This document shows positions 8,913-62,476 of a stretch of DNA of 62,629 nt, piece after piece. The stretch covers positions 1 through 62,629 of the forward strand of contig QBML01000031.1 of assembly GCA_003242085.1 (NCBI GenBank). The letters run 5' to 3'. Source of the stretch: Pseudanabaena frigida (lineage in GTDB: Bacteria; Cyanobacteriota; Cyanobacteriia; Pseudanabaenales; Pseudanabaenaceae). Made by a program: the position numbers and the translations under genes. The notes below the pieces were generated by a model. That model saw only the letters and a list, made by a program, of their open reading frames with translations. It was not told the DNA's origin and did not search any database. Each line of letters opens with the position of its first letter. The first letter of the stretch is position 1.

Positions 8913-9425
8913 ATGGATACGAATACTCTTCAGTCACTCTCTCATCTCGATCAAAATGGTAATGCTCAGATGGTGGATGTGACTCATAAACCGTCAACGG
9001 TGAGACGGGCGATCGCCATGTGTGAAATATCCATGAAGACTACGACCTTGGACGCGATCCAAGCGGGAAATTTACCGAAAGGAGACGTTTTGGGGACAGC
9101 AAAACTGGCGGGAATTATGGCTGCGAAACAAACTGCCAACTTGATTCCGATGTGTCATCCGCTGAATTTGACCAATGTCGATGTCAAAATTATGTTAGAC
9201 GAAAATATTCCAGGCTATCAGATTGAGGCAGAGGTCAAAACTAAGGCTGAGACTGGAGTAGAAATGGAGGCAATGACAGCCGTAACGATCGCTGCATTAA
9301 CGATTTACGATATGGCAAAGTCATTAGAAAAAACCATGATCATTTCGAATACAAGGCTAGTTCACAAGAGTGGTGGCAAATCTGGCGACTTTAACGCACC
9401 TAAGGGGGAGTCTTGCGATATTTGA
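8913..9425 (+). CDS. moaC: Cyclic pyranopterin monophosphate synthase MoaC
   Basis: 170-aa MoaC, which with MoaA converts GTP to cyclic pyranopterin monophosphate, the first stage of molybdenum cofactor synthesis. Conserved blocks include [22 protein letters not shown], the MAKSLEK helix and the C-terminal KSGGKSGDF. Length is normal. No other moa genes are in the window. An inverted repeat follows the stop. Confidence 0.97.
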
Positions 9426-9479
9426 GCTTAAGCTAGACGCTGGTTGAGCCCAGCCGCAACCAACGTCTAACTTAAGCTC
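9424..9479. terminator. Bidirectional terminator between moaC and the HMA gene
   Basis: GAGCTTAAG and its complement CTTAAGCTC bound a long imperfect stem (about 20 bp with small mismatches) around a GC-rich loop. It lies between the convergent moaC (+) and heavy-metal-associated domain gene (-). Confidence 0.55.
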
Positions 9480-9485
9480 GTAACC

Positions 9486-9680
9486 TTAGGAAACTTTATG
9501 ACCTGCAACCACGATCAAATTGCGAATTTTTGCTTCAGGTAGTTGACTATCAATTTCTAAGGATTTGTTTGCCACATCACCAACAATCGAAGCAGTAGCA
9601 TCAATCGATTGAATGGTTTTGGTAATAGTTTCAATGCAACTAGAACAACCAATAGAAGGAACTAATAGTTTTAAAGTCAT
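9486..9680 (-). CDS. Heavy-metal-associated (HMA) domain small protein
   Basis: 64-aa protein from ATG 9680 (a frame from 9707 adds nine residues). It has the HMA ferredoxin-like fold with the metal-binding motif GCSSC, i.e. CxxC, in loop 1, followed by the helix IETITKTIQSI and the typical beta strands. Small cytosolic HMA proteins carry copper or another soft metal to P-type ATPases. The shorter start is preferred because a TATAAT-like box (minus strand, about 9711-9716) lies too close to the upstream ATG. Confidence 0.85.
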   Translation of the reverse strand: MTLKLLVPSIGCSSCIETITKTIQSIDATASIVGDVANKSLEIDSQLPEAKIRNLIVVAGHKVS

Positions 9681-9711
9681 CAATCGATCAATGTAAAGAA
9701 CTTTCATCGAT

Positions 9712-9925
9712 TATAGCAATGCAAGTTTTGCTTGGGACATAAAACCCAAAAGAGTCACCCTGCCGCAAGCGGGCGGCATATAAAATTCTTTTTTACTAGA
9801 ATTTAATCACACCGCAGAGCGGTAGGGTATTTACCTTCTTAGTTCAATAAAATAGAGGAGGCGCGAAGCGCCTCCTCTATTTACTTTGGGTTGGATTTGT
9901 CTTAGCTATCTCTCGTATCGCTATA
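9712..9925. repeat. F1 palindromic element interrupted by a second element
   Basis: This covers most of the 9708-10094 gap. The outer part is an F1 element in inverse orientation: it starts TATAGCAATGCAAG, reaches AACCCAAA near 9750, then resumes near 9848 with the GAGGAGGCGCGAAGCGCCTCCTC core. It ends in the partner arm GGGTTGGATTTGTCTTAGC and a terminal TATCGCTATA. About 98 bp of different palindromic sequence sits between the two halves. The remaining 170 bp before the next gene shows no named feature. Confidence 0.7.
9754..9831. repeat. Nested MITE-like palindrome inside the F1 copy
   Basis: The ends TCACCCTGCCGC and the inverse of GCGGTAGGGTA form an imperfect terminal inverted repeat. 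Each arm has its own mini-hairpin (GCCGC-AAGC-GGGCGGC; CCGC-AGA-GCGG), joined by AAAATTCT and AGAATTTA that also pair. It contains no coding sequence. Confidence 0.6.
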
Positions 9926-10094
9926 TAAAACCTAGAGATGATGAAACAGACATTATTTGTCGTTGCGATCGCGTTAGAAGAATTTAGAAGAACTAAGTTA
10001 AGTAATATGTCGAAAGTATAAAAATTGCTAGGGAATATATTTTAGCTCATCCCAATCACGTCAAATCCTAATAGTTATCATAGAATTAGTATAG

Positions 10095-12932
10095 ATGCAA
10101 AATTTGGCAAGGAATTTGGCAATTATGCAAGATATTCTAGATTATATTCAATGCGGAGTTTTTGCTTTAACAGTTGAGCCAAATTCCGATGCATTTAAAC
10201 TAGACAACTCAAAGTTTACTTTACGTTTTACAATCGCAAATTCGGCTTTTATCAAACTTATTTTTGGCGATCGTGATGACGGACAGACTGGGAAACTAAT
10301 TGGTTTGCAGCCCGATGAGTGTCTACCTTCAGATTTTTTTCAATTATTAAATACTCATGTTTTCCAATGTTTACAATCTCAAGAACAAGTTGAATATGAA
10401 GCTAAACTTAACTTAGTTTTGGCGGTCTCTCTTACTCTGAAGATTGAAGAGAATGATAATTCTTGGCAGATTATTGGGACTTGTCAAGATATTACAAATC
10501 AACGTCTATCGAACCCCCAAATTAAACACTTCAGAAAGGATGCGAAATTCAGTAATTTAGTTAATGAAATTTCAGATGCCATTGTGATTATCGATCGTGA
10601 AGGCGTTGTTTGCTATGTCAACCAAACAGCGGAAAAACTGTTTGGATACAAAGCTGAAGATATTGTTGGTGAAGTTTTTGGCATTCCAGTACTATCGGGA
10701 GAAAGTACGGATATTGATATTCTCAATCACGGCAAGATCACTACCGCTGAAATGCATGTATCAGAAACTATTGATGAAGATCAGATAGTTTATGTAGTAG
10801 CTTCTTTGCGTGATGTTTCCGAACGCAATCGGGTTGAGGAATCTCTAAAATTAAGAGAACGGGCGATCGCCGCAAGCTCTAATGGGATTGTAATTACTAA
10901 TGCTACCCAACCTAATAATCCCATAATTTACGTTAATCCCAGCTTTGAAAGGATTACTGGTTATAGTGCAACAGAGGTGATTGGACGCAATTGCCGATTT
11001 TTACAAGGTGGCGATCGCAACCAGATCGGCATTTTAGATTTGCATCAAGCTATTCAAGAACAGCGAGAATGCCATGCTGTCCTACTTAACTACCGTAAAG
11101 ATGGTACCCCATTTTGGAACGATCTATACATTGCTCCTGTATTTAACGATCGCGGCGAACTCACAAATTACATTGGCATTCAAACTGACATCACCGCACA
11201 AGTAAAGTCAACACAAAGATTGCTCGAAAGCGAAGAACGTTTGCGGACAGTACTTACTTCAATCAAAGAAGGCATCACCTTTAGTGATGACACAGGTAAT
11301 TTTGCAATTTTTAATTCGGGGATGGAAAATCTCACAGGTTATACGATCGCTGAAGCAAATACAAGTAATGATTTTACGAACTTTTTATATCCTGATTTTA
11401 CGGAACACAACGAAGCATTGCAAAGATTGCAGCAGCTACAAGAAACAGGTCGATCGGTAAGTGTCGAGACTCGCATTTGTCATAAAGATGGCACATTTAA
11501 AGATGTATTAGTCTTCACAAGACTAATTTTATACAAAGGCAAACGCATGTATTTGAGTAGTTATTACGACATTACAGAGCGTAAAAAAGTCGAAACTCAA
11601 CTACGCTACCAAAATGAAAGAGAGCACCTATTAAATGCAATTTTACTAAAAATACAATGCGAATTAAATCTCGAACAAATCTTAGCAATCACCGTTAAAG
11701 AAGCTCAAGAATTACTTCGGATTGATCGGGTTGTAATCTATCAGTTTCAGGAGGATTGGAGTGGCAAATTTGTTGTAGAAGAAGTTAACGATCCATCACT
11801 ATCAATTCTTGGAAATACAATTAGCGATCCATGTTTTAACGAAAATTATATACATCAATATCAGAACAAACCGATTTCTAGTATCAACGATCTCGATCTT
11901 GCGGAATTAAGTCCTTGCCATAAAAAGCTTTTACAAAGTTTTCAAGTCAAGGCAAATATCGTTGCCACAATTTCTTTTGGTGGTACTCTATGGGGATTGT
12001 TAATCGCTCACCAATGCTTAGCAAGCCGTCAATGGGAAGAATTTGAAATCGATCTACTCAGACAACTATCTAATCATGTGGCGATCGCCATTCAACAAGT
12101 CAAATTATTTGAACGCGTCCAAGAATTAAATAAAAGTCTAGAGCGTCAAGTTGCAGATCGAACTCAACAGTTGGAGCAAAGTCTAAAACAATTAGAAAGA
12201 GCATTGCTCAAAGAGAAAGAACTAAATGAACTGAAATCACAATTTATTTCTAGAGCATCCCATGAATTTCGTACTCCACTTGCAACTATTCAAACAGCTA
12301 GTGATTTACTAAGAAATTATGGATATAAAATGTCAGACGAGAAAAAATTAGAAAGAATCGACAAAATCCAGCGTGAAGTCAGGAGCATGACAAGCCTACT
12401 AGAGGAAGTGTTAATTATTGGCAAGTCTGAATCTGGAAAATTTGAGTTACAAATCGAAGAGATTAATTTAGAAGAATTTTGCTTAGAAATAATAGAACAA
12501 ATCAAAGTATTAGGAGGTAGTAAGCATCGAGTTGTATTTAAGAACGTTAATGCTCCCTCGAAGTTAGCGATCGATACTAAATTTTTTAAGCAAATTATTT
12601 CTAATTTATTGTCAAATGCAATTAAATATTCTCCCAATGGCGGAGAGGTAGCTTTTACGATTTCCCAAACTAGCGAAATCGTTCCCAAGCTTTTATTGGA
12701 GTTTAAAGATCGAGGAATTGGGATTCCTTTGAGCGATCAGGAAAAAGTGTTTGAGCATTTTTACCGCGCTCGAAATGTTGGTATGATTGCAGGAACTGGA
12801 CTAGGAATGGCAATTATCAAAAGCTCAATTGACATTCTTGGCGGCACAATTCAACTTAATAGCATTGAAAACGAAGGAACAACCATACAAGTAAAGCTTC
12901 CAAGCTTCTCAGAACAATTTGCGATTAGATAA
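10095..12932 (+). CDS. PAS-LOV-PAS-GAF(cyanobacteriochrome)-histidine kinase
   Basis: 945-aa soluble multi-sensor kinase. An N-terminal PAS-like region (about 10-135) and a PAS (about 150-245) precede a PAS at about 255-370 with the LOV signature GRNCRFLQG (Cys300 would form the flavin adduct), plus NPIIYVNPSF and FWNDLYIAPV. Another PAS spans about 375-495. A GAF domain (about 520-670) has SPCHKKLL (Cys608-His609, the canonical bilin site) and DPCF (Cys580), exactly 28 residues apart as in DXCF cyanobacteriochromes. A coiled coil, HisKA (SHEFRTP, His723) and HATPase end in GLGMAIIKS. It is probably a blue-light and bilin-light sensor. Its likely output is the REC-GGDEF-EAL protein encoded 345 bp downstream on the same strand. 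Met11 is an alternative start. Confidence 0.93.
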   Translation: MQNLARNLAIMQDILDYIQCGVFALTVEPNSDAFKLDNSKFTLRFTIANSAFIKLIFGDRDDGQTGKLIGLQPDECLPSDFFQLLNTHVFQCLQSQEQVEYEAKLNLVLAVSLTLKIEENDNSWQIIGTCQDITNQRLSNPQIKHFRKDAKFSNLVNEISDAIVIIDREGVVCYVNQTAEKLFGYKAEDIVGEVFGIPVLSGESTDIDILNHGKITTAEMHVSETIDEDQIVYVVASLRDVSERNRVEESLKLRERAIAASSNGIVITNATQPNNPIIYVNPSFERITGYSATEVIGRNCRFLQGGDRNQIGILDLHQAIQEQRECHAVLLNYRKDGTPFWNDLYIAPVFNDRGELTNYIGIQTDITAQVKSTQRLLESEERLRTVLTSIKEGITFSDDTGNFAIFNSGMENLTGYTIAEANTSNDFTNFLYPDFTEHNEALQRLQQLQETGRSVSVETRICHKDGTFKDVLVFTRLILYKGKRMYLSSYYDITERKKVETQLRYQNEREHLLNAILLKIQCELNLEQILAITVKEAQELLRIDRVVIYQFQEDWSGKFVVEEVNDPSLSILGNTISDPCFNENYIHQYQNKPISSINDLDLAELSPCHKKLLQSFQVKANIVATISFGGTLWGLLIAHQCLASRQWEEFEIDLLRQLSNHVAIAIQQVKLFERVQELNKSLERQVADRTQQLEQSLKQLERALLKEKELNELKSQFISRASHEFRTPLATIQTASDLLRNYGYKMSDEKKLERIDKIQREVRSMTSLLEEVLIIGKSESGKFELQIEEINLEEFCLEIIEQIKVLGGSKHRVVFKNVNAPSKLAIDTKFFKQIISNLLSNAIKYSPNGGEVAFTISQTSEIVPKLLLEFKDRGIGIPLSDQEKVFEHFYRARNVGMIAGTGLGMAIIKSSIDILGGTIQLNSIENEGTTIQVKLPSFSEQFAIR

Positions 12933-13030
12933 ATAGTCACATAATGCTAAATAATTTATGGTGAGCTTCGACTTCGTCCAAACATCAATGCATAGCAATC
13001 TAAAAATAGTAATTGTAATAGTAATTGTAA

Positions 13031-13087
13031 AAGGCTTGAACTCCGCTTAGCCATGTGTTTACTTTGGCTGAGCGGAGTTCAAGCCTT
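13031..13087. repeat. Long hairpin in the gap after the LOV kinase
   Basis: AAGGCTTGAACTCCGC and its complement form a stem of about 23 bp (one G-T pair) with an 11-nt loop, about 100 bp after the kinase stop. There is no T-run, so it is more likely a palindromic repeat than a terminator. Nothing else is recognisable in the 12933-13277 gap apart from short AGTAATTGTA-like direct repeats at about 13006-13030. Confidence 0.6.
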
Positions 13088-13277
13088 ATCTAAATTTACA
13101 AATGATTTCGGATTGCTATAATCTAACCAAATAAAGCCGAGACATTACCCTAAAATACAGATTATTTTTGATCTTTACGGATTTTTACTAAAATTACATT
13201 AAAAATGACTTTACAAAAATCTAGTTTTCCCTCTCACGAAAAGTTCTCTACGGCTATCTAAATGGAAAGATGAAATT

Positions 13278-14999
13278 ATGACAATGATCTTGGTCATCGA
13301 AGATGTAGAAGCTTTACGGGAGGAGATTATGGAGACACTATCCTATGAGGGCTTTGATGTACTGGGGGCTGAGAACGGAGCCATTGGTGTTCAAATAGCC
13401 AATACCTATTTACCAAATTTAATTATTTGTGACATAGCCATGCCAGAACTGGATGGTTACGGAACCCTAGTAGCGCTTCGGCAAGAGCCTAAAACCTCTA
13501 TGATTCCGTTCATCTTTTTGACTGCCTTGACTGAGAGATCGGATATGCGTCAGGCAATGCAATTAGGCGCTGATGATTATCTTACAAAGCCCTTTACTTC
13601 TATAGAGTTACTTGGAGCGATCGCGTCACGCCTGCAAAAATACAACTCAGTCAGAGAGCACTATTACGATGAGATCAAAGCTGTTGGAGCAAGGTATGAA
13701 TATTTGTCTCACCACGACGAGCTTACGCAACTCCCAAATCGAATTCTTTTTCACGATTCATTGAGCCAAGCAGTTCTCCATGCAGAAATCAACAAGAAGA
13801 CCCTAGCTTTGCTCTTTTTAGATATGGATAATTTCAATATCATTAACAACACACTTGGGAATGATATTGGCGATCAATTGTTTAAAGCAATAGCTGAAAG
13901 ACTGAAACGATATACAGCTCCTTGCGATATGGTGGCCCGTATACAGGGAGACGAATTTGCCATGATTATCTCTGATATTAAGGATGTTAATAATGTAAAG
14001 CTTGAGGCTCAGAAAATTTTAGATTTATTGAGCCGTCCTTATAATTTATACGGTCATGAAGTTTTTATTACTAGTAGTATTGGCATCACTATTTTTCCTG
14101 AAGATCATCGAGATGTAGACGGATTAATAAAAAATGCCGAATTAGCAATGTACTATGCCAAAAATCACGGCAGAAATAGCTATAAGTTGTATAGCTCTGA
14201 CCTCAATGTCCAGTCTTCCGAGTATATGGCTTTGGCTAATAGTCTGCATCGAGCCATCGATCGCAAAGAAATTCGTGTTTTTTATCAACCTTTAGTTGAT
14301 TTAAAGTCAGGGCAGGTAGTAGGAGCAGAGGCACTGGCGAGATGGCAACATCCAGATCTTGGCATCATTATGCCAGGCAAATTTATTCCAATTGCTGAAC
14401 AAACAGGATTGATCCTGCGTTTAGGTGAGTTGGTACTAGATGCAGCTTGCAAACAAATGCAATCGTGGCAGGAGTTAGATATAAATTATGGGTTTATTGC
14501 CGTAAATTTATCAGGTCAGCATTTCCGCCCAGACAATAACTTGCTCGAACTGATTAGCAAGGTTTTGCAAGAAACTGGTATAGAGGCTCATCATTTAGAG
14601 ATCGAACTCACTGAAAGTATAATTATGCAAAATGCTGAATATACGATTGAGGTTTTATCTCAGTTACAAATTATGGGTGTCAAGGTAGCAATTGATGATT
14701 TCGGTACAGGCTATTCATCCTTAAGCTATCTCAAACATTTTCCCGTTAACACTCTAAAAATCGATCGCTGTTTTATTCAAGATATAATCACCGATCGCCA
14801 TGATGCGACGATTTCATTGGCAATTATTGATTTAGCCCATAGTTTGTCATTGCATGTTGTAGCGGAAGGAGTTGAAACCAGCGAGCAAGCTAATTTTTTG
14901 AAGGAGCATGGTTGCGATCAGATGCAAGGATATTTCTTTAGTCCACCTTTACCTGCGTCTGAATTTGAAAAAATACTTCTCGAGAGTAAATGCTTATAA
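13278..14999 (+). CDS. Response regulator with GGDEF and EAL domains
   Basis: 573-aa cyclic-di-GMP enzyme. A receiver domain (about 1-120) has phospho-acceptor Asp52 and Lys104. It is followed by a GGDEF domain (about 140-300) and an EAL domain (about 320-565). The GGDEF motif reads QGDEF at 223-227, so diguanylate cyclase activity may be lost. The EAL motif (EALARW, from Glu351), the LTES block and DDFGTGYSSLSYL are intact, which suggests phosphodiesterase output. It follows the LOV/cyanobacteriochrome kinase on the same strand, so light-controlled c-di-GMP breakdown is a reasonable inference. Confidence 0.95.
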   Translation: MTMILVIEDVEALREEIMETLSYEGFDVLGAENGAIGVQIANTYLPNLIICDIAMPELDGYGTLVALRQEPKTSMIPFIFLTALTERSDMRQAMQLGADDYLTKPFTSIELLGAIASRLQKYNSVREHYYDEIKAVGARYEYLSHHDELTQLPNRILFHDSLSQAVLHAEINKKTLALLFLDMDNFNIINNTLGNDIGDQLFKAIAERLKRYTAPCDMVARIQGDEFAMIISDIKDVNNVKLEAQKILDLLSRPYNLYGHEVFITSSIGITIFPEDHRDVDGLIKNAELAMYYAKNHGRNSYKLYSSDLNVQSSEYMALANSLHRAIDRKEIRVFYQPLVDLKSGQVVGAEALARWQHPDLGIIMPGKFIPIAEQTGLILRLGELVLDAACKQMQSWQELDINYGFIAVNLSGQHFRPDNNLLELISKVLQETGIEAHHLEIELTESIIMQNAEYTIEVLSQLQIMGVKVAIDDFGTGYSSLSYLKHFPVNTLKIDRCFIQDIITDRHDATISLAIIDLAHSLSLHVVAEGVETSEQANFLKEHGCDQMQGYFFSPPLPASEFEKILLESKCL

Positions 15000-15119
15000 C
15001 AAAAGCGATAGCACTTTGCCTAAGCACTCTTTTTTATCCTAACAATACTGGCGATCGCGATAAATTTATCGGTATGCTAACAAACAATCTTTTGTTGAGT
15101 CCTTTCTAACAATAACTTC

Positions 15120-16190
15120 ATGAGTAAATCTAAACGCGCTTTAATCACAGGCATTACTGGTCAAGATGGATCTTATCTATCGGAGTTGTTACTAGCAAAA
15201 GGGTACGAAGTCCATGGCATTATTCGCCGCACTTCAACGATCAATACCGATCGCCTCGATCATATGTATCAAGATCCGCATTTACCAGAGACCAAATTAT
15301 TTTTACACTATGGCGATTTAACAGATGGAACAACCCTAGGACGCATTTTAGAAGCTGTACGACCACATGAAGTATTTAACTTAGGAGCACAGTCTCATGT
15401 GCGCGTCAGTTTTGACTCTCCAGAATATACCGTTGATGCAGTGGGGATGGGAACACTGAGACTGCTAGAGGCACTGCGAGATTATCAACAGCGCAATAGT
15501 AGAGGAATCCGTTTTTATCAAGCAGGTTCTTCGGAAATGTATGGATTAGTACAAGCAGTACCTCAAAATGAGACGACTCCATTTTATCCACGTAGTCCTT
15601 ATGCTTGCGCGAAAGTATACGCTCATTGGCAAACCATCAATTACCGCGAATCCTATGGACTGTTTGCTTGCAATGGAATTTTGTTTAATCATGAGTCTCC
15701 ACGCCGAGGAGAGACATTTGTGACTCGAAAAATCACAAGGGCGATTGCTCGCATCATCACAGGACAACAGAAAAAGCTATATCTAGGAAATTTGGACTCC
15801 AAGCGGGACTGGGGATACGCAAAGGACTATGTTGAAGCAATGTGGTTAATGTTGCAGCAGGAAGAAGCCGACGACTATGTGATTTCGACAGGTGAGACCC
15901 ACTCAGTAAGGGAATTCTTAGAGGCATCATTTGCCTATGTCAATCTCAAATGGGAAGATTATGTAGAGATCGACCCTCGTTATTTTCGACCAGCAGAGGT
16001 AGATTTGTTATTAGGAGACTGCACGAAGGCGAAACAAAAACTTGGCTGGGAACCCAAAGTTACGTTTAAGGATTTAGTCGAGCTAATGGTTGATGCTGAT
16101 TTGGAGGCATTAGGCTTGCCAAATCCCAAAGGCACAGCATCTAAAGACATTGCAACACTGCGAAATGCTCAACAGACATCAACTTGGTAA
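15120..16190 (+). CDS. gmd: GDP-mannose 4,6-dehydratase
   Basis: 356-aa short-chain dehydrogenase/reductase that converts GDP-D-mannose to GDP-4-keto-6-deoxymannose. It has the NADP-binding motif [30 protein letters not shown], the catalytic SSEMYG and [10 protein letters not shown] with the YxxxK pair, and the [15 protein letters not shown] substrate loop. Length is typical. The GDP-L-fucose synthase gene follows on the same strand, forming the two-step GDP-fucose branch that feeds cell-surface polysaccharide. Confidence 0.98.
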
Positions 16191-16191
16191 T

Positions 16192-16228
16192 AAAAATCGA
16201 GGTAACGCTAAGCGTTACCTCGATTTTT
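16192..16228 (+). terminator. Terminator hairpin between gmd and fcl
   Basis: AAAAATCGAGGTAACGCT and its exact complement meet with a single central A, ending in five T residues, directly after the gmd stop. It is a strong intrinsic terminator shape, so fcl may have its own promoter or depend on read-through. About 60 bp on is a CCCCGCCACAAGCG stretch loosely like the 9.75-kb repeat. Confidence 0.75.
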
Positions 16229-16333
16229 GTGATGGTTTCTAAGATTAATTCCCCACCTTTCAGTGGCATAAGTATATTGACAAGGATTTAGATACCCCGC
16301 CACAAGCGAACTGGATGATTTATTTATCACTAA

Positions 16334-17308
<975 letters not shown>

Positions 17309-43935: not shown

Positions 43936-46176
43936 TTATTTCTTTTGCTTGTTCATTGCCATATATTCTCTAATGTACTTAAACGGAAAAGGAAGAACTG
44001 TACTTTGACCAGTTCTTACAAAATCTACATCCATTGTGGGAAGTAGCTGTTGAAACACTAGTTTTGAGTCTTTATTTACTGCGACAATTTTACGTAAGTG
44101 ATAAGAATCTTTTAGAGAAGATTGTATGCTTGCTTTACTACAACCAACAAAGTAATAAGCTTCATTATCAGTTTCACCAAAGTACTTAATATCAACTGTA
44201 GCGTCAAATATTTCCTCTTTACTTCGATTGTCTTTAGGAAAAATAAATCTAACTCCATACTTTTCCCAGAAATAAGCTCTGAGTTTATCAGGATCTTTAC
44301 CCTTTGCTGCTTTCCCAGATTTACTGAGGTGTTTGCCAATTAACTTATGAAATTCATTCTTATTTACTGGATTACTGCCAAATTCTTTAAGTTCATCGAG
44401 TAAGCTGTTAGAACCTTGTTGCGAAGAAACAGAATGTATTTTTAAAAATTGTTGAACTATCTCGCAAAGATCATATCCTGTAGAAATCTCTTCTGGGAAT
44501 GACACCTCTCTCTCTGAAAGAAGAGTATGTATTCTTTCTAAATCAGGCAAAGTAATTTCCTGCGTTAAAAAGATTTGGTTTATATCACCTTCGTTAGAAA
44601 TAATCAAACCTTCTAAATTAGGTTTCTTTTTCCTTTTTTGATTCAAATTATTTTCATCTTCATAAGAGGTTAAATCTTTTGTATCGGATTTCTTGTAAGA
44701 CATATGCTCTAAATATGTATCAAATTTAGAAACATTGAAGAGATCGCAATCCTGAGAACGCCTCGAAAAACTAAACTGACCATCGTGAAGAATTTCCATA
44801 AAGATAACATTCTCTTCATCTTCATCCCAAGCCGCAAAAGTCCAAGTACCAGATAAACCTAAATTAGACCATTTAAACAAACTAAATTTAAGTTCACTGA
44901 TATCTTTTTTAATTAATAGTTCTTTAACACTTGTTTCTATAATATTCTTAATATTTTTATTTTGAAGCTTTAAAGATTCAATAGTGATGTTCTGCCTATA
45001 AATACTTAGATCTAGATCTGAGTATTTATACTCTTCTTCTATATTATTCTTTATGTAGTAAGACTTTTCATGGATTATTCTTATATTCAGTTTGTTAGGC
45101 TTATCTTCATTCCCAAAAGTAATTATCTTGGATGGTAAATTATACTCTTTCATGATAATTTCTTTTGAATTATCAATTATAGTCCTAGATTCATCAGTAC
45201 CAACCTTGTCTACAATGTGTATCTTCTGATCAGCTAATATAAGGTTCATCTGTTTAGGATCTTTGATTAGCGAATTTTTAAGCTCACAGTAATCAATAGC
45301 ATCTCGCCCTAACAAGTCTATAGAAATATATTCGGACAAATCTTTTTTGGCTAGATTAAAGATATTGTAAAAGATACCCGCTCGACTTTTATTAAAAGCC
45401 TCGACATTAGCAAATTCAAGAAAGGGCAATGATGCCTTTTCATTAGTTTTGCCACACTCAACATAAGTCGAATTAATATCAAGTTCGCCATCACTTGGAA
45501 GATGTCTTCTGAAAGTGGAAGTAGAAGTAGTTCCTTCAAATCTATAATAAGGCTTTTTTAGAGCTTTCTCTAATTGATCTTTTCGTCTGGGATCTTTTAT
45601 TTTTGCCAACTCAACATTTATATCTGATAACGAACGATATCGCACGATGCTAACATTTAGAAACCAATCTTCATCCTTCGCATCTATTTTTATTTTTGCA
45701 ATATCTAAATGTCCTTTTTTATGTGGACTTTGAAACACTACAAGAAGTGAACCTGTAAGATTACAAAATTGACATTTTTTATGTCGAGATGTAGATGATG
45801 CAAGATAGTTAAATAAAATCTGTACTAACCAAGCACCTCGAATATAACCATCAGTGCGATCTTTATTGTCTATAGGTATAACTTTTGTTATAGCAGTATC
45901 ATCATCAAATAATTTAGAGTCTCTAACCTTTGATATTAATGTATAAATATCTACAGTCTTTTTATTTATAATTTTTTTGAACATTGCATAGGCATATTTG
46001 TTATCTATAAATAGAGTTGCTACAGCCATGAATTCTTTTCCAAAAAGAGAGTCAAGTTGTGAAGCTCCTACCCACTTGTTTCCTTTTGTTTCCCTCTTAA
46101 TTCTAATAAAGACAAAATCACGTTCTATAGCTTCAATATTAAATTGAATTTGCAAACGGTTAGTAATAGTAATCAT
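43936..46176 (-). CDS. Unknown 746-aa partner of the helicase-nuclease
   Basis: I do not recognise a family. The product is soluble, lysine- and isoleucine-rich. It has a single CxxC (CQFC, Cys135/Cys138) after a basic patch, a central beta-rich region (GTWTFAAWDEDEENVIFMEI; LEGLIISNEGDINQIFL) and a distinctive C-terminal block (YYFVGCSKASIQSS; TVLPFPFKYIREYM). It overlaps the upstream helicase gene by 4 bp (ATGA), so the two are translationally coupled. Composition is strongly AT-rich and I see no HIP1 octamer. A nucleic-acid-binding or sensor subunit of a two-gene system is the simplest inference; a PIWI-like core cannot be shown from motifs. Confidence 0.9.
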   Translation of the reverse strand: MITITNRLQIQFNIEAIERDFVFIRIKRETKGNKWVGASQLDSLFGKEFMAVATLFIDNKYAYAMFKKIINKKTVDIYTLISKVRDSKLFDDDTAITKVIPIDNKDRTDGYIRGAWLVQILFNYLASSTSRHKKCQFCNLTGSLLVVFQSPHKKGHLDIAKIKIDAKDEDWFLNVSIVRYRSLSDINVELAKIKDPRRKDQLEKALKKPYYRFEGTTSTSTFRRHLPSDGELDINSTYVECGKTNEKASLPFLEFANVEAFNKSRAGIFYNIFNLAKKDLSEYISIDLLGRDAIDYCELKNSLIKDPKQMNLILADQKIHIVDKVGTDESRTIIDNSKEIIMKEYNLPSKIITFGNEDKPNKLNIRIIHEKSYYIKNNIEEEYKYSDLDLSIYRQNITIESLKLQNKNIKNIIETSVKELLIKKDISELKFSLFKWSNLGLSGTWTFAAWDEDEENVIFMEILHDGQFSFSRRSQDCDLFNVSKFDTYLEHMSYKKSDTKDLTSYEDENNLNQKRKKKPNLEGLIISNEGDINQIFLTQEITLPDLERIHTLLSEREVSFPEEISTGYDLCEIVQQFLKIHSVSSQQGSNSLLDELKEFGSNPVNKNEFHKLIGKHLSKSGKAAKGKDPDKLRAYFWEKYGVRFIFPKDNRSKEEIFDATVDIKYFGETDNEAYYFVGCSKASIQSSLKDSYHLRKIVAVNKDSKLVFQQLLPTMDVDFVRTGQSTVLPFPFKYIREYMAMNKQKK

Positions 46177-49100
46177 TTATTTGTTTCTCCTAAAATGAAG
46201 TTAACTGCTTCTTTATCGATGCTATTATTTCTATACAGATACGGGATCTCAATGATTGATATATCCTTTTGGATTTTCACTTTAAATGGTTGATCTTTTG
46301 GAGCAAGAAGATTAATAATCATAACTTTATTTGCTTTAATCTTCTCCATTTTATTGCGAATCTTACTTATTTCATCTTCAGCATCTCGTATAAATGCTCC
46401 ACTCCAAAACTTAAAATCTATATATACATTTTTTTCGGTTTTAAAGTCAAAGACTTCAAACTCATTAACATCTAGCTCAATTAAAGGTATATTTAACTCT
46501 TCAAAGACATGTTTGCCACAAACTTCTCCTAATGCTCCTTTATAAATATCATTGAACATTGGAGGCGTAAGCATATACTTAGAAGGCAAAAATGATGTTG
46601 CCCATCCATTCTTAGTAAACAATTTATAGAAGGAATCTATTTTCATTAATTCCGACAGACGGACAGTAGTCTCATCCATTAAACTAAAATCTGTATTAGA
46701 AAAAGAAATTTCCACATTACTATCACTTGGTCTATTAAAGTAATAGTAATTATTTGGTATAGGAAGTTGTAAATAAAGAGGTTTCCAACGATCAATCAAC
46801 TGAGAATCATCAATAACTGTTGGTTGCTTTAAAACTTGTTGACGTATTTCTAGCCATTCTTCTTTACTATCATCAGACCAAGAACCATATAAAAGTCTTT
46901 GATTTATGTAGCTAGCAGTTTTACAACTTACATATGAAGCTTTATTTTCTAAATCTATCAAGTTATTATGTGGATCGGAAATATCACTATCTAAAGATGC
47001 TGCACGGACAAGAGCATTATATTCATGTATTAAGATCATGTTTTTTGGCAAAGATACATTATTAAGATGTTCTTTAATCGTAATATCAGCCAAAATGTGA
47101 ATTTTATCCGCCTTCATATTCGTGCGACAAATTCTACCAATCGCCTGAATAATAAATTTATTTAGCAAACTAGAGTAGGCATTTGTATTATACAAATATC
47201 TATTAGAGTAATTATTTGGTTGTTCTTTTAAAAATGCTCTAAAAGCTCTTGTAAGTTCACTTTTGAACTCTTTAGGAGAAATATCTCCTGCTTCTCGTAA
47301 GAATTCTAATTGAAATATATATTTTATGAGATCATGCTCTGAAACATTACCATAATTTAAAGCAACCATTAAGTGAGTGGGCTTATCTAAATATATGGCA
47401 TTAATATCCATACACCCATCTTTATCTCGATTATTGGTATGTATTGGTTGAATATTTTGCGGGATTTTAAATTGCAAGTTCTGCCCCGACCCCACTGTTT
47501 GATAAGTAGAAACAATAAATCGACGCTTACCATTAGCTAAGTCATTTAATAATTTTTCTTTTTCCCTATCAAAATTCTCACTTGAGAGTATAACAATTAC
47601 GTTCGAGATATCATCAACTATATCTGTAGATTCATCATCATCCAGTAAATCCTTAGCATATTCGATGATTTTATCCAAATCAAGTTGTGGATCTTTTCTT
47701 TTAGGTAATTTATTTAATAAGCACAAAAATCCATGACAGTCATGATTATCTAAAAAATATTTCCATGCCGTCAAAATTTTGGCATAACGACCAAAGACAA
47801 AATCAATGGAATTATCTTCATCTTCTTTATTTCCTATCTCAAATTTTAATTTTCCATATATATCATTAACTATTGCTTGATCATCAAAAACTCGTTCCAA
47901 ATTTACTTTAGATTCTTCAAGGGATTTGCCACCAATAAAACTAGCTTTAATAGTTAGACGATCATATCCATTCGTACTTTCTTCATAAGCTTTTTGAAGG
48001 CTTGAAATCTCATTATTCTGCAATTCAAAAAACAATTCATTCAACGAGCTTTTTAAATATTCAATATCATAATTTCCAATATTTGAATTGATATTAGCTG
48101 TTGCCGAAATACCGACAACCATAGCTTTTTTGCAAATATCAACCAAAAATGATTCAGGAGTTTGATCGAATTCGATCATTTGAATCTTTGATAAAGTATC
48201 ATGATCTTCCTTGTCAACAACGCTGTAATAAGAAAATCCGCTCTCATAAAATGGAGCTAGTTTCTTAAGATTTTTTTGAGGTGATTTATATACGACCTCT
48301 CCAGCAACAATTTTATTAGCTAATAAATCTATATCTTTATCATCAACATTGAAGTGATGAAGCAAGGATTTAACTGCAAACTCGAATGCAAAAAGCTCTT
48401 TATCTAGTTTGCCTTCATCTTTTAAATGTTTGTAATTTTGAGATAAATAACTAATCCCTTTTTGAAAATATGTTAAAAAACTACTTAGCTCAATAAGTAA
48501 GGATCGTATATCAACAAAGGTATTATTAGCAGAACTCGAAATGTCATTATCACAAGTACGAATCCAATTTATATTCCCCTGAGTATCTGTAGCAACAACA
48601 ATTTTTTTCTTAGCATCTAAAATACTATAAAATCTATAGTCATAAAATAAGAAGTTCCTTTTTCTGTTGAACTCTTCTCCATCAGATTTACACTTGTGTT
48701 GCAGGTCATATTTTTTAAAAATATTTTGAGATTTTGTTCTCAATGTTTGAAGTAATTCATCAGGTGGTAGCCATTTTTTACCAGACGATTCTTTAATCCA
48801 CCACTCAGATTTTTTAGTGATATTTTTAGAATCTTCCATCTTGGCTAAATGGTTATGAATATCAACAAAAAAATCAATAAGATCGATACGATTCTTAATT
48901 CCTGATTCGATAATGTTTTGTAGAATAGTTTCTTTAGTGCTATCGAACTCATCAATAAAGATTAAAGATTCTTTTTTGAGATGTTCTTTAAATGAATAAG
49001 ATGCTTCAACTAAAGTAGAATTTTTAACAATAAATTTGTTAATACTAAGAAAAATCACTGTTTTTTCATCAGTAAATACGGCTGGATAAAGCTTGCCAAT

Positions 49101-49652
49101 CCACTGATATTCTCGATCTTCTTTAATAGCTCGTAAACGTGATGGTTTATCTGTGAAATTTTTTTTATCTCTTAGTTCTTGTTCAATCAATCTACGAAAT
49201 TCTGGTTCTAGCTCACTCGCTATTTTGAGATTTATATAATCCTCAAACTCTTTAGGAAGATCCGTCTTTTTTGCTAGATTCAAATATTTAACTAGATCCT
49301 TATACTGAGGTGTTTGTGTATACCTTTTTGGGATGTCATCCTCTATTGATAATAGATTTGCTTTAATAGCGTTAACGTTACTATCGATGAATAAAACATG
49401 CTTTTTAAACTCTTCTTGAAGATTATCCTCATCAAAACGCTTTTGCAAATCTTCCCAAGGCAAGTTTTTCTTGAGGTTAGTAACAAAGAAAATCTTTCTG
49501 CCTTGACTAGCAAAATCACGGTAATTCTTATAGATAAAGTCTAAAACGTTATAGGTCTTGCCAAATCCTGTTGGCATACTGAGCAAAAATAGACCTTGAG
49601 GACTTTGGTTACAGTAATTATGCAAAGTCTGACTAATTAGGTTCTTTTTCAT
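46173..49652 (-). CDS. Superfamily 2 helicase fused to a PD-(D/E)XK-like nuclease
   Basis: 1159 aa. Motif I is MPTGFGKT (27-33), motif II IFIDEFD (DEFD 234-237), motif III GISATAN (SAT 516-518), the motif V region STYQTVGSGQNLQF (715-728) and motif VI IIQAIGRICRT (835-844). Large insertions separate the helicase lobes. The C-terminus has GALGE (Glu1043), FDF (Asp1069) and YIDFK (Asp1079, Lys1081), the spacing of a PD-(D/E)XK nuclease core. Seven G residues just before the ATG may aid ribosome binding. It is the first gene of an AT-rich, HIP1-free operon. I infer a mobile anti-phage module; no known named system is recognised. Confidence 0.9.
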   Translation of the reverse strand: MKKNLISQTLHNYCNQSPQGLFLLSMPTGFGKTYNVLDFIYKNYRDFASQGRKIFFVTNLKKNLPWEDLQKRFDEDNLQEEFKKHVLFIDSNVNAIKANLLSIEDDIPKRYTQTPQYKDLVKYLNLAKKTDLPKEFEDYINLKIASELEPEFRRLIEQELRDKKNFTDKPSRLRAIKEDREYQWIGKLYPAVFTDEKTVIFLSINKFIVKNSTLVEASYSFKEHLKKESLIFIDEFDSTKETILQNIIESGIKNRIDLIDFFVDIHNHLAKMEDSKNITKKSEWWIKESSGKKWLPPDELLQTLRTKSQNIFKKYDLQHKCKSDGEEFNRKRNFLFYDYRFYSILDAKKKIVVATDTQGNINWIRTCDNDISSSANNTFVDIRSLLIELSSFLTYFQKGISYLSQNYKHLKDEGKLDKELFAFEFAVKSLLHHFNVDDKDIDLLANKIVAGEVVYKSPQKNLKKLAPFYESGFSYYSVVDKEDHDTLSKIQMIEFDQTPESFLVDICKKAMVVGISATANINSNIGNYDIEYLKSSLNELFFELQNNEISSLQKAYEESTNGYDRLTIKASFIGGKSLEESKVNLERVFDDQAIVNDIYGKLKFEIGNKEDEDNSIDFVFGRYAKILTAWKYFLDNHDCHGFLCLLNKLPKRKDPQLDLDKIIEYAKDLLDDDESTDIVDDISNVIVILSSENFDREKEKLLNDLANGKRRFIVSTYQTVGSGQNLQFKIPQNIQPIHTNNRDKDGCMDINAIYLDKPTHLMVALNYGNVSEHDLIKYIFQLEFLREAGDISPKEFKSELTRAFRAFLKEQPNNYSNRYLYNTNAYSSLLNKFIIQAIGRICRTNMKADKIHILADITIKEHLNNVSLPKNMILIHEYNALVRAASLDSDISDPHNNLIDLENKASYVSCKTASYINQRLLYGSWSDDSKEEWLEIRQQVLKQPTVIDDSQLIDRWKPLYLQLPIPNNYYYFNRPSDSNVEISFSNTDFSLMDETTVRLSELMKIDSFYKLFTKNGWATSFLPSKYMLTPPMFNDIYKGALGEVCGKHVFEELNIPLIELDVNEFEVFDFKTEKNVYIDFKFWSGAFIRDAEDEISKIRNKMEKIKANKVMIINLLAPKDQPFKVKIQKDISIIEIPYLYRNNSIDKEAVNFILGETNK

Positions 49653-59938: not shown

Positions 59939-62476
59939 TTGGCTGAAAGATATAAACATCTTAATCCGATATATCAAGAGATCCTCAAACAAGAGCGTCT
60001 CAACAACTTAATGCGGATAGCTAAATGTTTTGAAAATAGTACGGTTGGCGTTTTTGAAACGACTTTAGACGATCGAATTAGTGAAATTAGTTTATCTTTC
60101 TGTGATTTGTTAGGATATAGCACTTCGCAAATATGCCACCTCAAATACGAACAAATATGCCATCCTGACGATCTATCTGCTTACTATTTTTTAAAAGAGA
60201 GACTACTCTCAGGCGAAATCGATCATTGTTACTTAAATGTTCGTTATATTCGTGCTGATGGTCAAATCGTACAAGTTCTCCAGAGCACCGATCTTGATAT
60301 TGGGGAAGGTCAAGAGCCTCACTTCATGAATAGATTTGAAGACATAACGGATTGGGAACAGACTGCTAGAAATCAAAGTGCTTCAGAAAATAGGACACGC
60401 TATTTATTTGAAAACAACCCCAATCCCATGTGGATTTACGACCTAGAAACTCTCCAGTTCCTAGCGGTAAATCAAGCGGCAATCAATCACTATGGCTATA
60501 GTGAAAGTGAATTTCTATCGATGAAAACACTGGATATTCGACCACCCGAAGATGTGCCTAAGCTCTTAAATGCGATCGCCAATATATCCACAGGATTGAG
60601 CATACCTGAGATTTGGCGGCATTGCAAAAAGGATGGTAGCCAGATTTTAGTAGAAGTCTCAGCTCATACGTTAACTTACAACAATCGTAAATGCGAACTT
60701 ATTTTAGCGAATGATGTTACTCAAAAATTGCAAGCTGAGGAAGCCCTCAAAAGAGCAGAAGCCAAGTATCGCGGCATTTTTGAGAATGCTGTAGAAGGGA
60801 TTTTTCAAAGCTCAATTGATGGAAAATTTTTGATTGCCAATCCAATGTTGGCAAAAATCTATGGATATGATTCTCCCGAAGACTTGATTGCCAATCTTAC
60901 AGATATCCAGCATCAAATCTATGTCGATCCCCAACGTCGGACGCTGTTGCTCGAACTCTTACTAGCACAAGAAGATGTCAAACAGTTTGAATCACAGGTC
61001 TATCGTAAAGATGGCACGATCATTTGGACTTCGGAAAATGCTCATGCAGTTTACGACACAATAGGAAAATTCCTCTACTTTGAAGGCACAGTTGAAGACA
61101 TTACGGAAAGTAAGCGTGCAAAAGCTGAAATTGAATATCTTGCTTTTCACGACTCTCTCACTAATTTACCAAACCGAGTTCTATTTCGCGATCGCCTTAA
61201 AATTGCTTTAGACAATGCCTACGAGCAACTGCAAACTCACTTTCAACAAGATAGTCAAAGAGAAATTAAAACAATTCCTCCACTTCTAGCAGTAATGTTC
61301 CTAGATTTAGATCGTTTTAAATTAGTAAACGACACAATGGGACATGCTGCTGGCGATCGCCTCTTAATCGAAGTTGCCAAGAGACTGAGTGAATGCATGT
61401 TTGCAAGTACTTTTCTGGCGCGGATGGGAGGTGATGAGTTTATGATATTTGTATCTGAATTGCAAAGTGTTGAGTCAATTCAACAATTCGCTCAGTTAAT
61501 TCTGCAATCTTTTGAAAACCCTTTCTTTGTAGAAGAAAGACCGATTTATATTGGTACGAGTATTGGCATTAGTCTTTATCCAAGCGATGGATTGGATGAA
61601 GATGCTTTAATGAAAAATGCCGACACGGCAATGTTTCGAGCTAAAGAGCGCGGCAGAAATCATTATCAGCTCTATAATCATGCGATCGGTGCAAAAGTAA
61701 TGGAGTATGTGGCGATTGAGAATGGCATTCGCCAAGCTCTCGAGCGCTCGGAGTTTCAAGTTTTCTATCAGCCTCAGATCGATCTGCTTACGGGCGAAAT
61801 TGATTGTATGGAAGCCTTAGCACGTTGGCTCCATCCAGAGCTTGGTTGGGTTCCACCCAATCAATTTGTTCCTGCTGCCGAAGAGCATGGTTTGATCGTT
61901 CGTTTGGGAGAGTGGGTTTTGCAGACTGCTTGTATGCAAAATCGAATGTGGCAAAAACAGGGATTACCTCCCATTCGGATGGCAGTAAACTTTTCGGCAA
62001 AACAATTTCAAGTCCCGACATTGTGCGAGCGCATTATGCAAATCCTGAAGGAAATTGAATTGGAACCTAAGTACTTAGAAATAGAAGTTACTGAAAGCTT
62101 AGTGATGCAAGATCAAGCAACGACAATTAAAATACTACGGCATTTGCAATCACTGGGGATGAGTGTATCGATTGATGACTTCGGTACTGGCTATTCTTCG
62201 CTTAGTTATTTACGATTATTGCCCGTTAGCAAAGTAAAAATTGATGCAAGCTTTATCCGCGAGACTCCACAAAACATTGAAGACTCAGCAATTACATCGG
62301 CAATTATTGCGATGGCGCATAGTCTCAAACTGAGGGCGATCGCTGAAGGGGTAGAGCGTAAAGAGCAATTAGAGTTTTTGCGATCGCATAGCTGTGACGG
62401 AGTTCAGGGCTATCTGTTCAGTCGTCCCGTTCCTGCCCAAGAAGCCACTTTATTCCTTCAATCTCAATTCAGGTAA
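59939..62476 (+). CDS. PAS-PAS-PAS-GGDEF-EAL cyclic-di-GMP protein
   Basis: About 845 aa from a TTG at 59939; an ATG at 60011 (821 aa) is an equally good start and keeps all domains. Three PAS domains (about 25-145, 150-265 and 270-395) precede GGDEF (about 410-570; motif GGDEF intact at 497-501) and EAL (about 585-840; EALARW from residue 625, VTESLVMQD, DDFGTGYSSLSYL). Both motifs are intact, so either synthesis or breakdown of c-di-GMP is possible. Ligands of the PAS domains are unknown, and none has the LOV cysteine motif. Confidence 0.94.
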   Translation: MAERYKHLNPIYQEILKQERLNNLMRIAKCFENSTVGVFETTLDDRISEISLSFCDLLGYSTSQICHLKYEQICHPDDLSAYYFLKERLLSGEIDHCYLNVRYIRADGQIVQVLQSTDLDIGEGQEPHFMNRFEDITDWEQTARNQSASENRTRYLFENNPNPMWIYDLETLQFLAVNQAAINHYGYSESEFLSMKTLDIRPPEDVPKLLNAIANISTGLSIPEIWRHCKKDGSQILVEVSAHTLTYNNRKCELILANDVTQKLQAEEALKRAEAKYRGIFENAVEGIFQSSIDGKFLIANPMLAKIYGYDSPEDLIANLTDIQHQIYVDPQRRTLLLELLLAQEDVKQFESQVYRKDGTIIWTSENAHAVYDTIGKFLYFEGTVEDITESKRAKAEIEYLAFHDSLTNLPNRVLFRDRLKIALDNAYEQLQTHFQQDSQREIKTIPPLLAVMFLDLDRFKLVNDTMGHAAGDRLLIEVAKRLSECMFASTFLARMGGDEFMIFVSELQSVESIQQFAQLILQSFENPFFVEERPIYIGTSIGISLYPSDGLDEDALMKNADTAMFRAKERGRNHYQLYNHAIGAKVMEYVAIENGIRQALERSEFQVFYQPQIDLLTGEIDCMEALARWLHPELGWVPPNQFVPAAEEHGLIVRLGEWVLQTACMQNRMWQKQGLPPIRMAVNFSAKQFQVPTLCERIMQILKEIELEPKYLEIEVTESLVMQDQATTIKILRHLQSLGMSVSIDDFGTGYSSLSYLRLLPVSKVKIDASFIRETPQNIEDSAITSAIIAMAHSLKLRAIAEGVERKEQLEFLRSHSCDGVQGYLFSRPVPAQEATLFLQSQFR

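Follow-up and report, generated by a model that had tools for sequence, protein, structure and literature searches.

In this study, we have explored a sensor histidine kinase of Pseudanabaena frigida and its orthologues, starting from a stretch of 62,629 nucleotides (NCBI GenBank assembly GCA_003242085.1, contig QBML01000031.1, positions 1 to 62,629 of the forward strand; hereafter the window). Sequence comparison and structure prediction confirm that two different predicted photosensors, a flavin-type LOV domain and a bilin-type GAF domain, lie on the single chain of this kinase. We consider it probable that the protein is the sensor of a two-component system whose two photosensors are separable, act in an OR-like or additive manner and drive the adjacent REC-GGDEF-EAL response regulator, with cyclic di-GMP (c-di-GMP) as the output; for chromophore binding, photochemistry, phosphotransfer and logic, this reading is built on sequence and predicted fold. 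The features of the kinase are given below with the evidence for each (aa, amino acids).

10095-12932, plus strand: sensor histidine kinase, 945 aa, in the order PAS-PAS-LOV-PAS-GAF(DXCF)-HisKA-HATPase_c (open reading frame and Pfam)
10095-10529, plus strand: N-terminal region, aa 1-145, the least conserved part of the kinase (predicted strands and helices, orthologue conservation)
10545-10829, plus strand: PAS domain 1, about aa 151-245 (best stretch of PAS_8, 151-196; C-terminal limit from the model)
10851-11201, plus strand: LOV domain, aa 253-369, with putative flavin-contact residues Gln304, Asn332, Asn342 and Gln363 (Pfam, sequence matches, fold)
10992-10994, plus strand: Cys300, the predicted flavin-adduct cysteine (sequence; kept in 26/26 genus orthologues)
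11220-11594, plus strand: PAS domain 3, about aa 376-500, between LOV and GAF (best stretch of sensory_box, 378-503; model)
11628-12110, plus strand: GAF domain, aa 512-672, of the DXCF cyanobacteriochrome type (Pfam, sequence matches, fold)
11832-11834, plus strand: Cys580, the second cysteine, in the DXCF motif (sequence, TePixJ alignment; kept in 24/26 genus orthologues)
11916-11918, plus strand: Cys608, the canonical bilin-attachment cysteine (sequence, TePixJ alignment; kept in 23/26 genus orthologues)
12234-12437, plus strand: HisKA domain, with the phospho-acceptor His723 in RASHEFRTPL (Pfam; His723 in 26/26 genus orthologues)
12573-12902, plus strand: HATPase_c catalytic domain (Pfam)

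The original prediction, made from the letters of the window, had read a LOV signature around Cys300 and a DXCF cyanobacteriochrome pair further on, and the motifs it named (NPIIYVNPSF, GRNCRFLQG, FWNDLYIAP, DPCF and SPCHKKLL) were all found, with Cys580 and Cys608 separated by 28 residues as it had stated. For the LOV part, a 137-aa stretch matches 150 distinct solved sequences at an expect value (E) of 1e-6 or below, the best being the Pseudomonas short LOV protein 7r5n (E 2.7e-43). A model of this domain alone (predicted local distance difference test, pLDDT, 89.3) is closest to MrLOVe (9vf7; Z 21.3, root-mean-square deviation, rmsd, 1.5 over 140), followed by PpSB2-LOV (7a6p; Z 20.4, rmsd 1.9 over 143) and PF5-LOV (7r5n; Z 20.2, rmsd 1.7 over 142). 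Cys300, Gln304, Asn332, Asn342 and Gln363 align with the solved LOV domains and are invariant in all 26 orthologues of the genus; the last four are presumably the residues that contact the flavin. The absence of flavin-binding residues near Cys300, raised beforehand as a possible objection, is thus not what we observed, and sequence matches, predicted fold and invariant contact residues together support the LOV assignment. Around this core there is variation: Asn299 is replaced by Asp in 20/26 genus orthologues, like the DCRFLQ of Pseudomonas LOV proteins, the Arg301 position holds Arg in 19, Lys in five and Gly in two of the 26, Arg308 is kept in 25, and the C+17 position (His317 in the kinase) is His in 11 and Arg in 15. 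PpSB1-LOV is described with four arginines, R54, R61, R66 and R70 (PMC13322254); in the kinase, R54 and R61 correspond to Arg301 and Arg308, and the places of R66 and R70 are taken by Ile313 and His317, a pattern which hints, weakly, at a fast dark recovery of the LOV domain.

The evidence for the second photosensor is of the same kind. The solved matches of the GAF part are headed by cyanobacteriochromes (6oap, E 3.1e-38; TePixJ, 3vv4, E 6.3e-27), and a 95-aa stretch spanning Cys580 and Cys608 has TePixJ as its best match, with both cysteines aligned gap-free and His609, which follows Cys608, in register. When taken from the full-length model, the GAF domain superposes on the blue-absorbing structure of TePixJ (4glq) with Z 23.9 and an rmsd of 2.2 A over 149 residues, so that alignment and predicted fold both bear out a DXCF domain as in TePixJ. 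No PHY domain is among the Pfam matches of the kinase. The position of the tryptophan of miRFP670nano, which we take to be the tryptophan of the red/green type at that place of the GAF domain, is a serine in the kinase. A chance match of short motifs, as an origin of the LOV and GAF signatures, is ruled out by the E-values and the folds. Typical DXCF domains are described as phycoviolobilin-binding, blue-absorbing in the dark and green-absorbing after light (PMC11284453). If the GAF domain is typical in this respect, blue light would be the first input of both sensors, and therefore the extra information brought by the bilin would mainly be that of blue versus green. Four bilin-reductase matches lie above the family cut-off in the host genome, so bilins should be available in the host.

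The kinase part is complete, with His723, the N, G1 and G2 boxes (NLLSNAIKYS, DRGIGIP, GTGLGMAI), and HisKA and HATPase_c above their cut-offs; besides these and the GAF domain, Pfam gives three PAS_9 stretches. The open reading frame starts with ATG, and the true start is perhaps Met11 (10125), as the alignable part of the relatives opens near it (MQ.ILD..). We infer from the predicted structure that aa 1-145 are PAS-like, a point which the Pfam output does not settle. The kinase was assumed to be soluble.

We then turn to the orthologues, which inform us about how the two inputs relate to each other. At a match threshold of E 1e-90, 34 of the 38 genomes of the order hold an orthologue, including 26/26 in the genus (among them Pseudanabaena SR411, UWO311, mucicola FACHB-723 and cinerea FACHB-1277). 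Within the genus, the LOV cysteine is present in 26, Cys580 in 24, Cys608 in 23 and all three in 23. Outside the genus there are eight genomes with a match. All three cysteines are present in G006 and G007, and in G001 on two contigs; G036 has kept both bilin cysteines with a LOV domain lacking the cysteine motif, and G002-G004 have kept both bilin cysteines with the LOV domain entirely absent. Over the 34 genomes, this amounts to 30 with the LOV cysteine, 30 with the bilin pair and 26 with all three. On a tree of the kinase computed without the LOV and cysteine columns (a quick, unrooted tree with long branches for L121 and L118, and with G001 left out), LOV loss needs two changes and bilin-cysteine loss three. 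Because there are relatives in which one sensor is lost and the other kept, in both directions, we infer that LOV and GAF are separable inputs which can be discarded individually, and whose logic would be OR-like or additive rather than an obligatory AND. The original prediction had one protein integrating blue light through flavin with a bilin-based colour sense; its two sensors hold in sequence and fold, and the integration is not obligatory, as one or the other is absent or dead in certain relatives.

The likely output of the kinase is suggested by the gene that follows it:

13278-14999, plus strand: predicted partner response regulator, REC (Asp52)-GGDEF (altered to QGDEF)-EAL (motifs intact) (Pfam, motifs, adjacency)
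13031-13093, strand not assigned: palindromic dispersed repeat between kinase and regulator (sequence, genome matches)

The solved sequences nearest to this regulator are GGDEF-EAL proteins. A REC-GGDEF-EAL gene adjoins the 3' end of the kinase in 18 of the 19 loci with downstream sequence (the window, L013-L016, L152, L154-L159, L161-L163, L168-L170 and the exception L160; the flanks of the other orthologues are short), and on this ground c-di-GMP is the likely output of the kinase. In the relatives, the two genes overlap by 4 nt at one extreme and lie 163 nt apart at the other, with stop and start overlapping in three genomes; in the window, the distance is 345 nt. The EAL motifs of the window copy are intact (AEALARW, NLSGQ, ELTES, DDFGTG, LKIDR, AEGVET, QGYFF), including those which we take to be catalytic, and this copy has QGDEF in place of the GGDEF signature, as does every one of the ten further copies examined from the genus. 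With a sound EAL domain and a modified GGDEF one, the regulator most likely acts as a phosphodiesterase, with net c-di-GMP breakdown, although its GGDEF domain may still be active. AQGIET is the last EAL motif of the regulators in G002-G004, the genomes without LOV. As an observation of its own, the regulators of L169 (AKGVET) and L154-L156 (AQGIET) have changed EAL motifs and differing GGDEF states, and in these lineages the c-di-GMP output may differ, have switched or have died.

Based on these results, a possible chain of events can be outlined. Blue light would form a flavin-Cys300 adduct in the LOV domain, and it would also convert the GAF bilin from the blue-absorbing into the green-absorbing form, which green light would reverse. 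Both changes would pass along the PAS/GAF helical spine to His723, the kinase would set the phosphorylation of the REC domain of the regulator, and the regulator would alter c-di-GMP, most likely as a phosphodiesterase. The LOV domain would read blue and the cyanobacteriochrome blue versus green, and these inputs would be combined in an OR-like or additive manner because either can be lost without the other.

Several observations weigh against this reading. Four of the 38 genomes (G033, G034, G035 and G037) are without a match to the kinase at the threshold used, and one or both GAF cysteines are lost in 3/26 genus orthologues; outside the genus, G005 has kept the LOV cysteine with Cys580 changed to Val. 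The DXCF site itself is not uniform, as L016 and L116 have a GAF cysteine spacing of 26 and not 28 residues, L112 and L117 lack the Asp of the motif and L108 lacks its Phe. The arginines of the FMN (flavin mononucleotide) phosphate, at Arg301 and C+17, are variable across the genus. The full-length model (mean pLDDT 79.8, predicted template modelling score, pTM, 0.38) gives usable single domains and, because of this pTM, an unreliable arrangement of the domains with respect to each other. On the output side, a different open reading frame follows the kinase in G036 (L160), where the regulator does not adjoin, and the altered EAL motifs in G013 (L169; EISER, AKGVET) indicate that the output is not the same everywhere.

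The losses on the GAF side could also mean that the LOV domain is the sole working light sensor, and that the GAF domain is losing its bilin function to become a spacer or a dimer interface. This would agree with the mean pairwise identity in the genus (0.892 for LOV, the most conserved sensory domain, versus 0.799 for GAF), with a LOV cysteine that is never lost among the 26, and with the three tree changes required for GAF cysteine loss. However, both GAF cysteines are kept in 23/26 genus orthologues, the three genomes outside the genus without LOV retain the DXCF pair, and in L109 and L110 the bilin cysteines have changed jointly with neighbouring pocket residues (C580N, D599N, C608S, H609Y), as if the site had been constrained until it was lost; we hold this reading to be unlikely. 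The reverse, in which the bilin GAF is the sole signaller and the LOV domain a flavin-bound redox or flavin-level sensor and not a light sensor, has a parallel in a c-di-GMP enzyme whose cysteine-less LOV-like PAS domain is reported as linked to light and flavin (PMC8846402), and the kinase-regulator pair does persist in G002-G004 without any LOV. Yet Cys300, required for the adduct, is invariant in 26/26 genus orthologues and present in G001 and G005-G007, which makes this the least probable of the readings considered here.

It could finally be that both sensors work and that the true target of the kinase is not the adjoining REC-GGDEF-EAL protein. Related kinases are abundant in the host (151 genome matches to the protein, many of them to the kinase part), and the 345 nt that separate the two genes in the window contain a promoter-like site as well as the repeat. 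Against this stand the conservation of the pair in 18/19 loci, also where the other neighbours differ, and the stop/start overlap in three genomes, so that we regard another target as very unlikely. The promoter-like site (13095-13122, 11/12) belongs to a class which, overall, is at the level of shuffled sequence (19 versus 18.5). As for the repeat, its 121-base query gave 24 match rows when searched against the host genome; two of these are its own place, and the remaining 22, of 73-86% identity, fall on 19 places.

The reading with two separable photosensors also raises the question of how widespread such a pairing is. A LOV profile search of 386 sampled cyanobacterial genomes (E 1e-38) gave matches in 90, and the best 85 rows were examined (80 fetched, five from earlier searches). 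Ten of these 85 have, in the same frame, a GAF domain with both bilin cysteines, and all ten have the LOV cysteine; they come from G000, G015, G026, G029, G233, G109, G164, G172, G209 and G099, that is, six genera. The profile contained rows of several such proteins, which enriches the best rows, so 10/85 probably overstates the rate, and 10/386 is a lower bound. By pattern match, 12 of the 80 fetched rows lack the LOV cysteine motif. Outside the order, the pairing was found in Trichocoleus FACHB-40 (L018), Coleofasciculus LEGE 07092 (L020), UBA8803 (L017) and the metagenome-assembled genome MS008 (L070). The order LOV-PAS-GAF-kinase is seen in L017, L018, L020 and L126, and in L207 and L218 (two genomes of one genus) the two photosensors are swapped and joined to another type of kinase (CBS-DXCF GAF-PAS-LOV-HisKA_2). 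L019 has kept LOV and the canonical cysteine and not the second one, and L240 (G335), an MHYT-GAF-LOV-methyl-accepting chemotaxis protein, has a GAF domain that looks like a cyanobacteriochrome with lost cysteines. We also noted a second LOV kinase in the host genome (G000:C7:53306-53716; L008, L172, L249), a 1199-aa frame with NCRFLQ intact and a GAF domain without bilin cysteines.

Quick trees were built from thinned alignments (near-identical rows removed; 101 of 118 LOV rows and 47 of 67 GAF rows used), with rows drawn from searches seeded with these families and thus sampled with a bias. On the GAF tree, the Pseudanabaenaceae and LOV-first kinases as one clade, that is, a single origin of the LOV-DXCF kinases, was rejected (p value of the approximately unbiased test, p-AU, 0.005), and for either family taken alone a clade was not rejected (p-AU 0.278 and 0.26); the LOV tree was undecisive on the one-clade question (p-AU 0.103). 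Because the GAF tree rejects one clade and the domain order varies, the pairing of LOV with a bilin GAF probably arose more than once.

Each of the modules is well known. What is new, as far as the open-access literature goes, is their natural combination as a variant: we found no description there of a natural protein with LOV and cyanobacteriochrome, and broader LOV or cyanobacteriochrome surveys may list such architectures. By sequence, the closest solved relative of the GAF domain is 6oap (E 3.1e-38) of the entry group 6oap, 6oaq and 6ob8, which we take, consistently with the entry titles, to be the dual-sensor histidine kinase PPHK of Shin et al. 2019. Its GAF domain lacks the DXCF cysteine (DQYF in the alignment). 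PPHK is reported to respond to light and to a second input, phosphorylation, as a logic OR (PMC8584932), whereas the second input of the Pseudanabaena kinase would come through a second chromophore. TePixJ and the DXCF cyanobacteriochromes share with the kinase the DXCF GAF, both cysteines in register and the same fold; the solved chain of TePixJ is named a methyl-accepting chemotaxis protein, whereas the Pseudanabaena GAF would drive a kinase and shares its chain with LOV. LOV histidine kinases, such as Brucella LOV-HK (LOV-PAS-HK, with a described spine; PMC8092228) and the engineered SB2F1, are alike in having LOV then kinase and similar folds, and differ in having no bilin domain.

Neochromes of ferns, hornworts and zygnematalean algae join bilin and LOV-type photosensors in one kinase, through two separate fusions (PMC4525182), and the term is likewise used for bilin plus LOV in one plant or algal protein (PMC12558739). 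They are made of a eukaryotic phytochrome module and a phototropin, unlike the single-GAF cyanobacteriochrome and histidine kinase of Pseudanabaena. Membership of the neochromes is ruled out by the missing PHY domain and the histidine kinase, and the likeness remains one of working principle. Light control of c-di-GMP has been described for SesA/B/C with blue, teal or green light (PMC9090330) and for the LOV-GGDEF-EAL protein SL2 with blue light (PMC8846402); there, sensor and enzyme are one protein, whereas in Pseudanabaena they are two, and the kinase has both types of sensor. YHF, an engineered kinase with LOV and haem-PAS, has two serial sensors and an integrated output (PMC6798134), and differs from the natural Pseudanabaena kinase in being engineered and in having oxygen as its second signal. 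Serial sensor domains at regular spacing, possibly integrated by coiled-coil linkers, are discussed in the same work (PMC6798134).

In the genus, most loci have moaC upstream and gmd and fcl downstream of the pair (gmd and fcl are absent in L016, moaC in L170), and none of these genes was seen beside the pair in other genera. A strong terminator-like hairpin (9850-9882; 15 pairs, 3-base loop) lies between moaC and the kinase gene, and no Rfam match was found in 9000-16500. Elsewhere in the window, a second c-di-GMP gene is found at its end (59939-62476, plus strand; PAS-GGDEF-EAL), and two overlapping open reading frames of 746 and 1159 aa lie at 43936-49652 on the minus strand; neither has a match in Pfam or NCBIfam, and they are similar to the DdmDE pair of plasmid defence, with a DdmD match of E 4.9e-53 over most of its length and a weak DdmE match (E 5.2e-06) in its C-terminal part.

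In conclusion, our results suggest that this kinase may weigh light colours against each other and steer a lifestyle signal accordingly. More broadly, we put forward as a tentative idea, held with somewhat less than even confidence, that cyanobacteria have repeatedly built natural flavin-and-bilin photoreceptors, a prokaryotic counterpart of the neochromes, and that the Pseudanabaena kinase is a light-colour calculator, with a LOV channel for blue intensity and a cyanobacteriochrome channel for the blue/green ratio converging on one histidine and read out as c-di-GMP. This would tie two blue-light systems to a single c-di-GMP output in filamentous cyanobacteria. Engineered fusions already allow the combination of dual light signals to be studied, and this kinase family offers a natural set. 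Its members have the same kinase joined to both sensors, to an intact LOV alone or to the cyanobacteriochrome alone, and lie next to the same regulator type in 18/19 loci; because such a series of sensor losses exists, signal integration in serial sensors becomes directly testable. The kinase is also a candidate dual-colour module for optogenetics.

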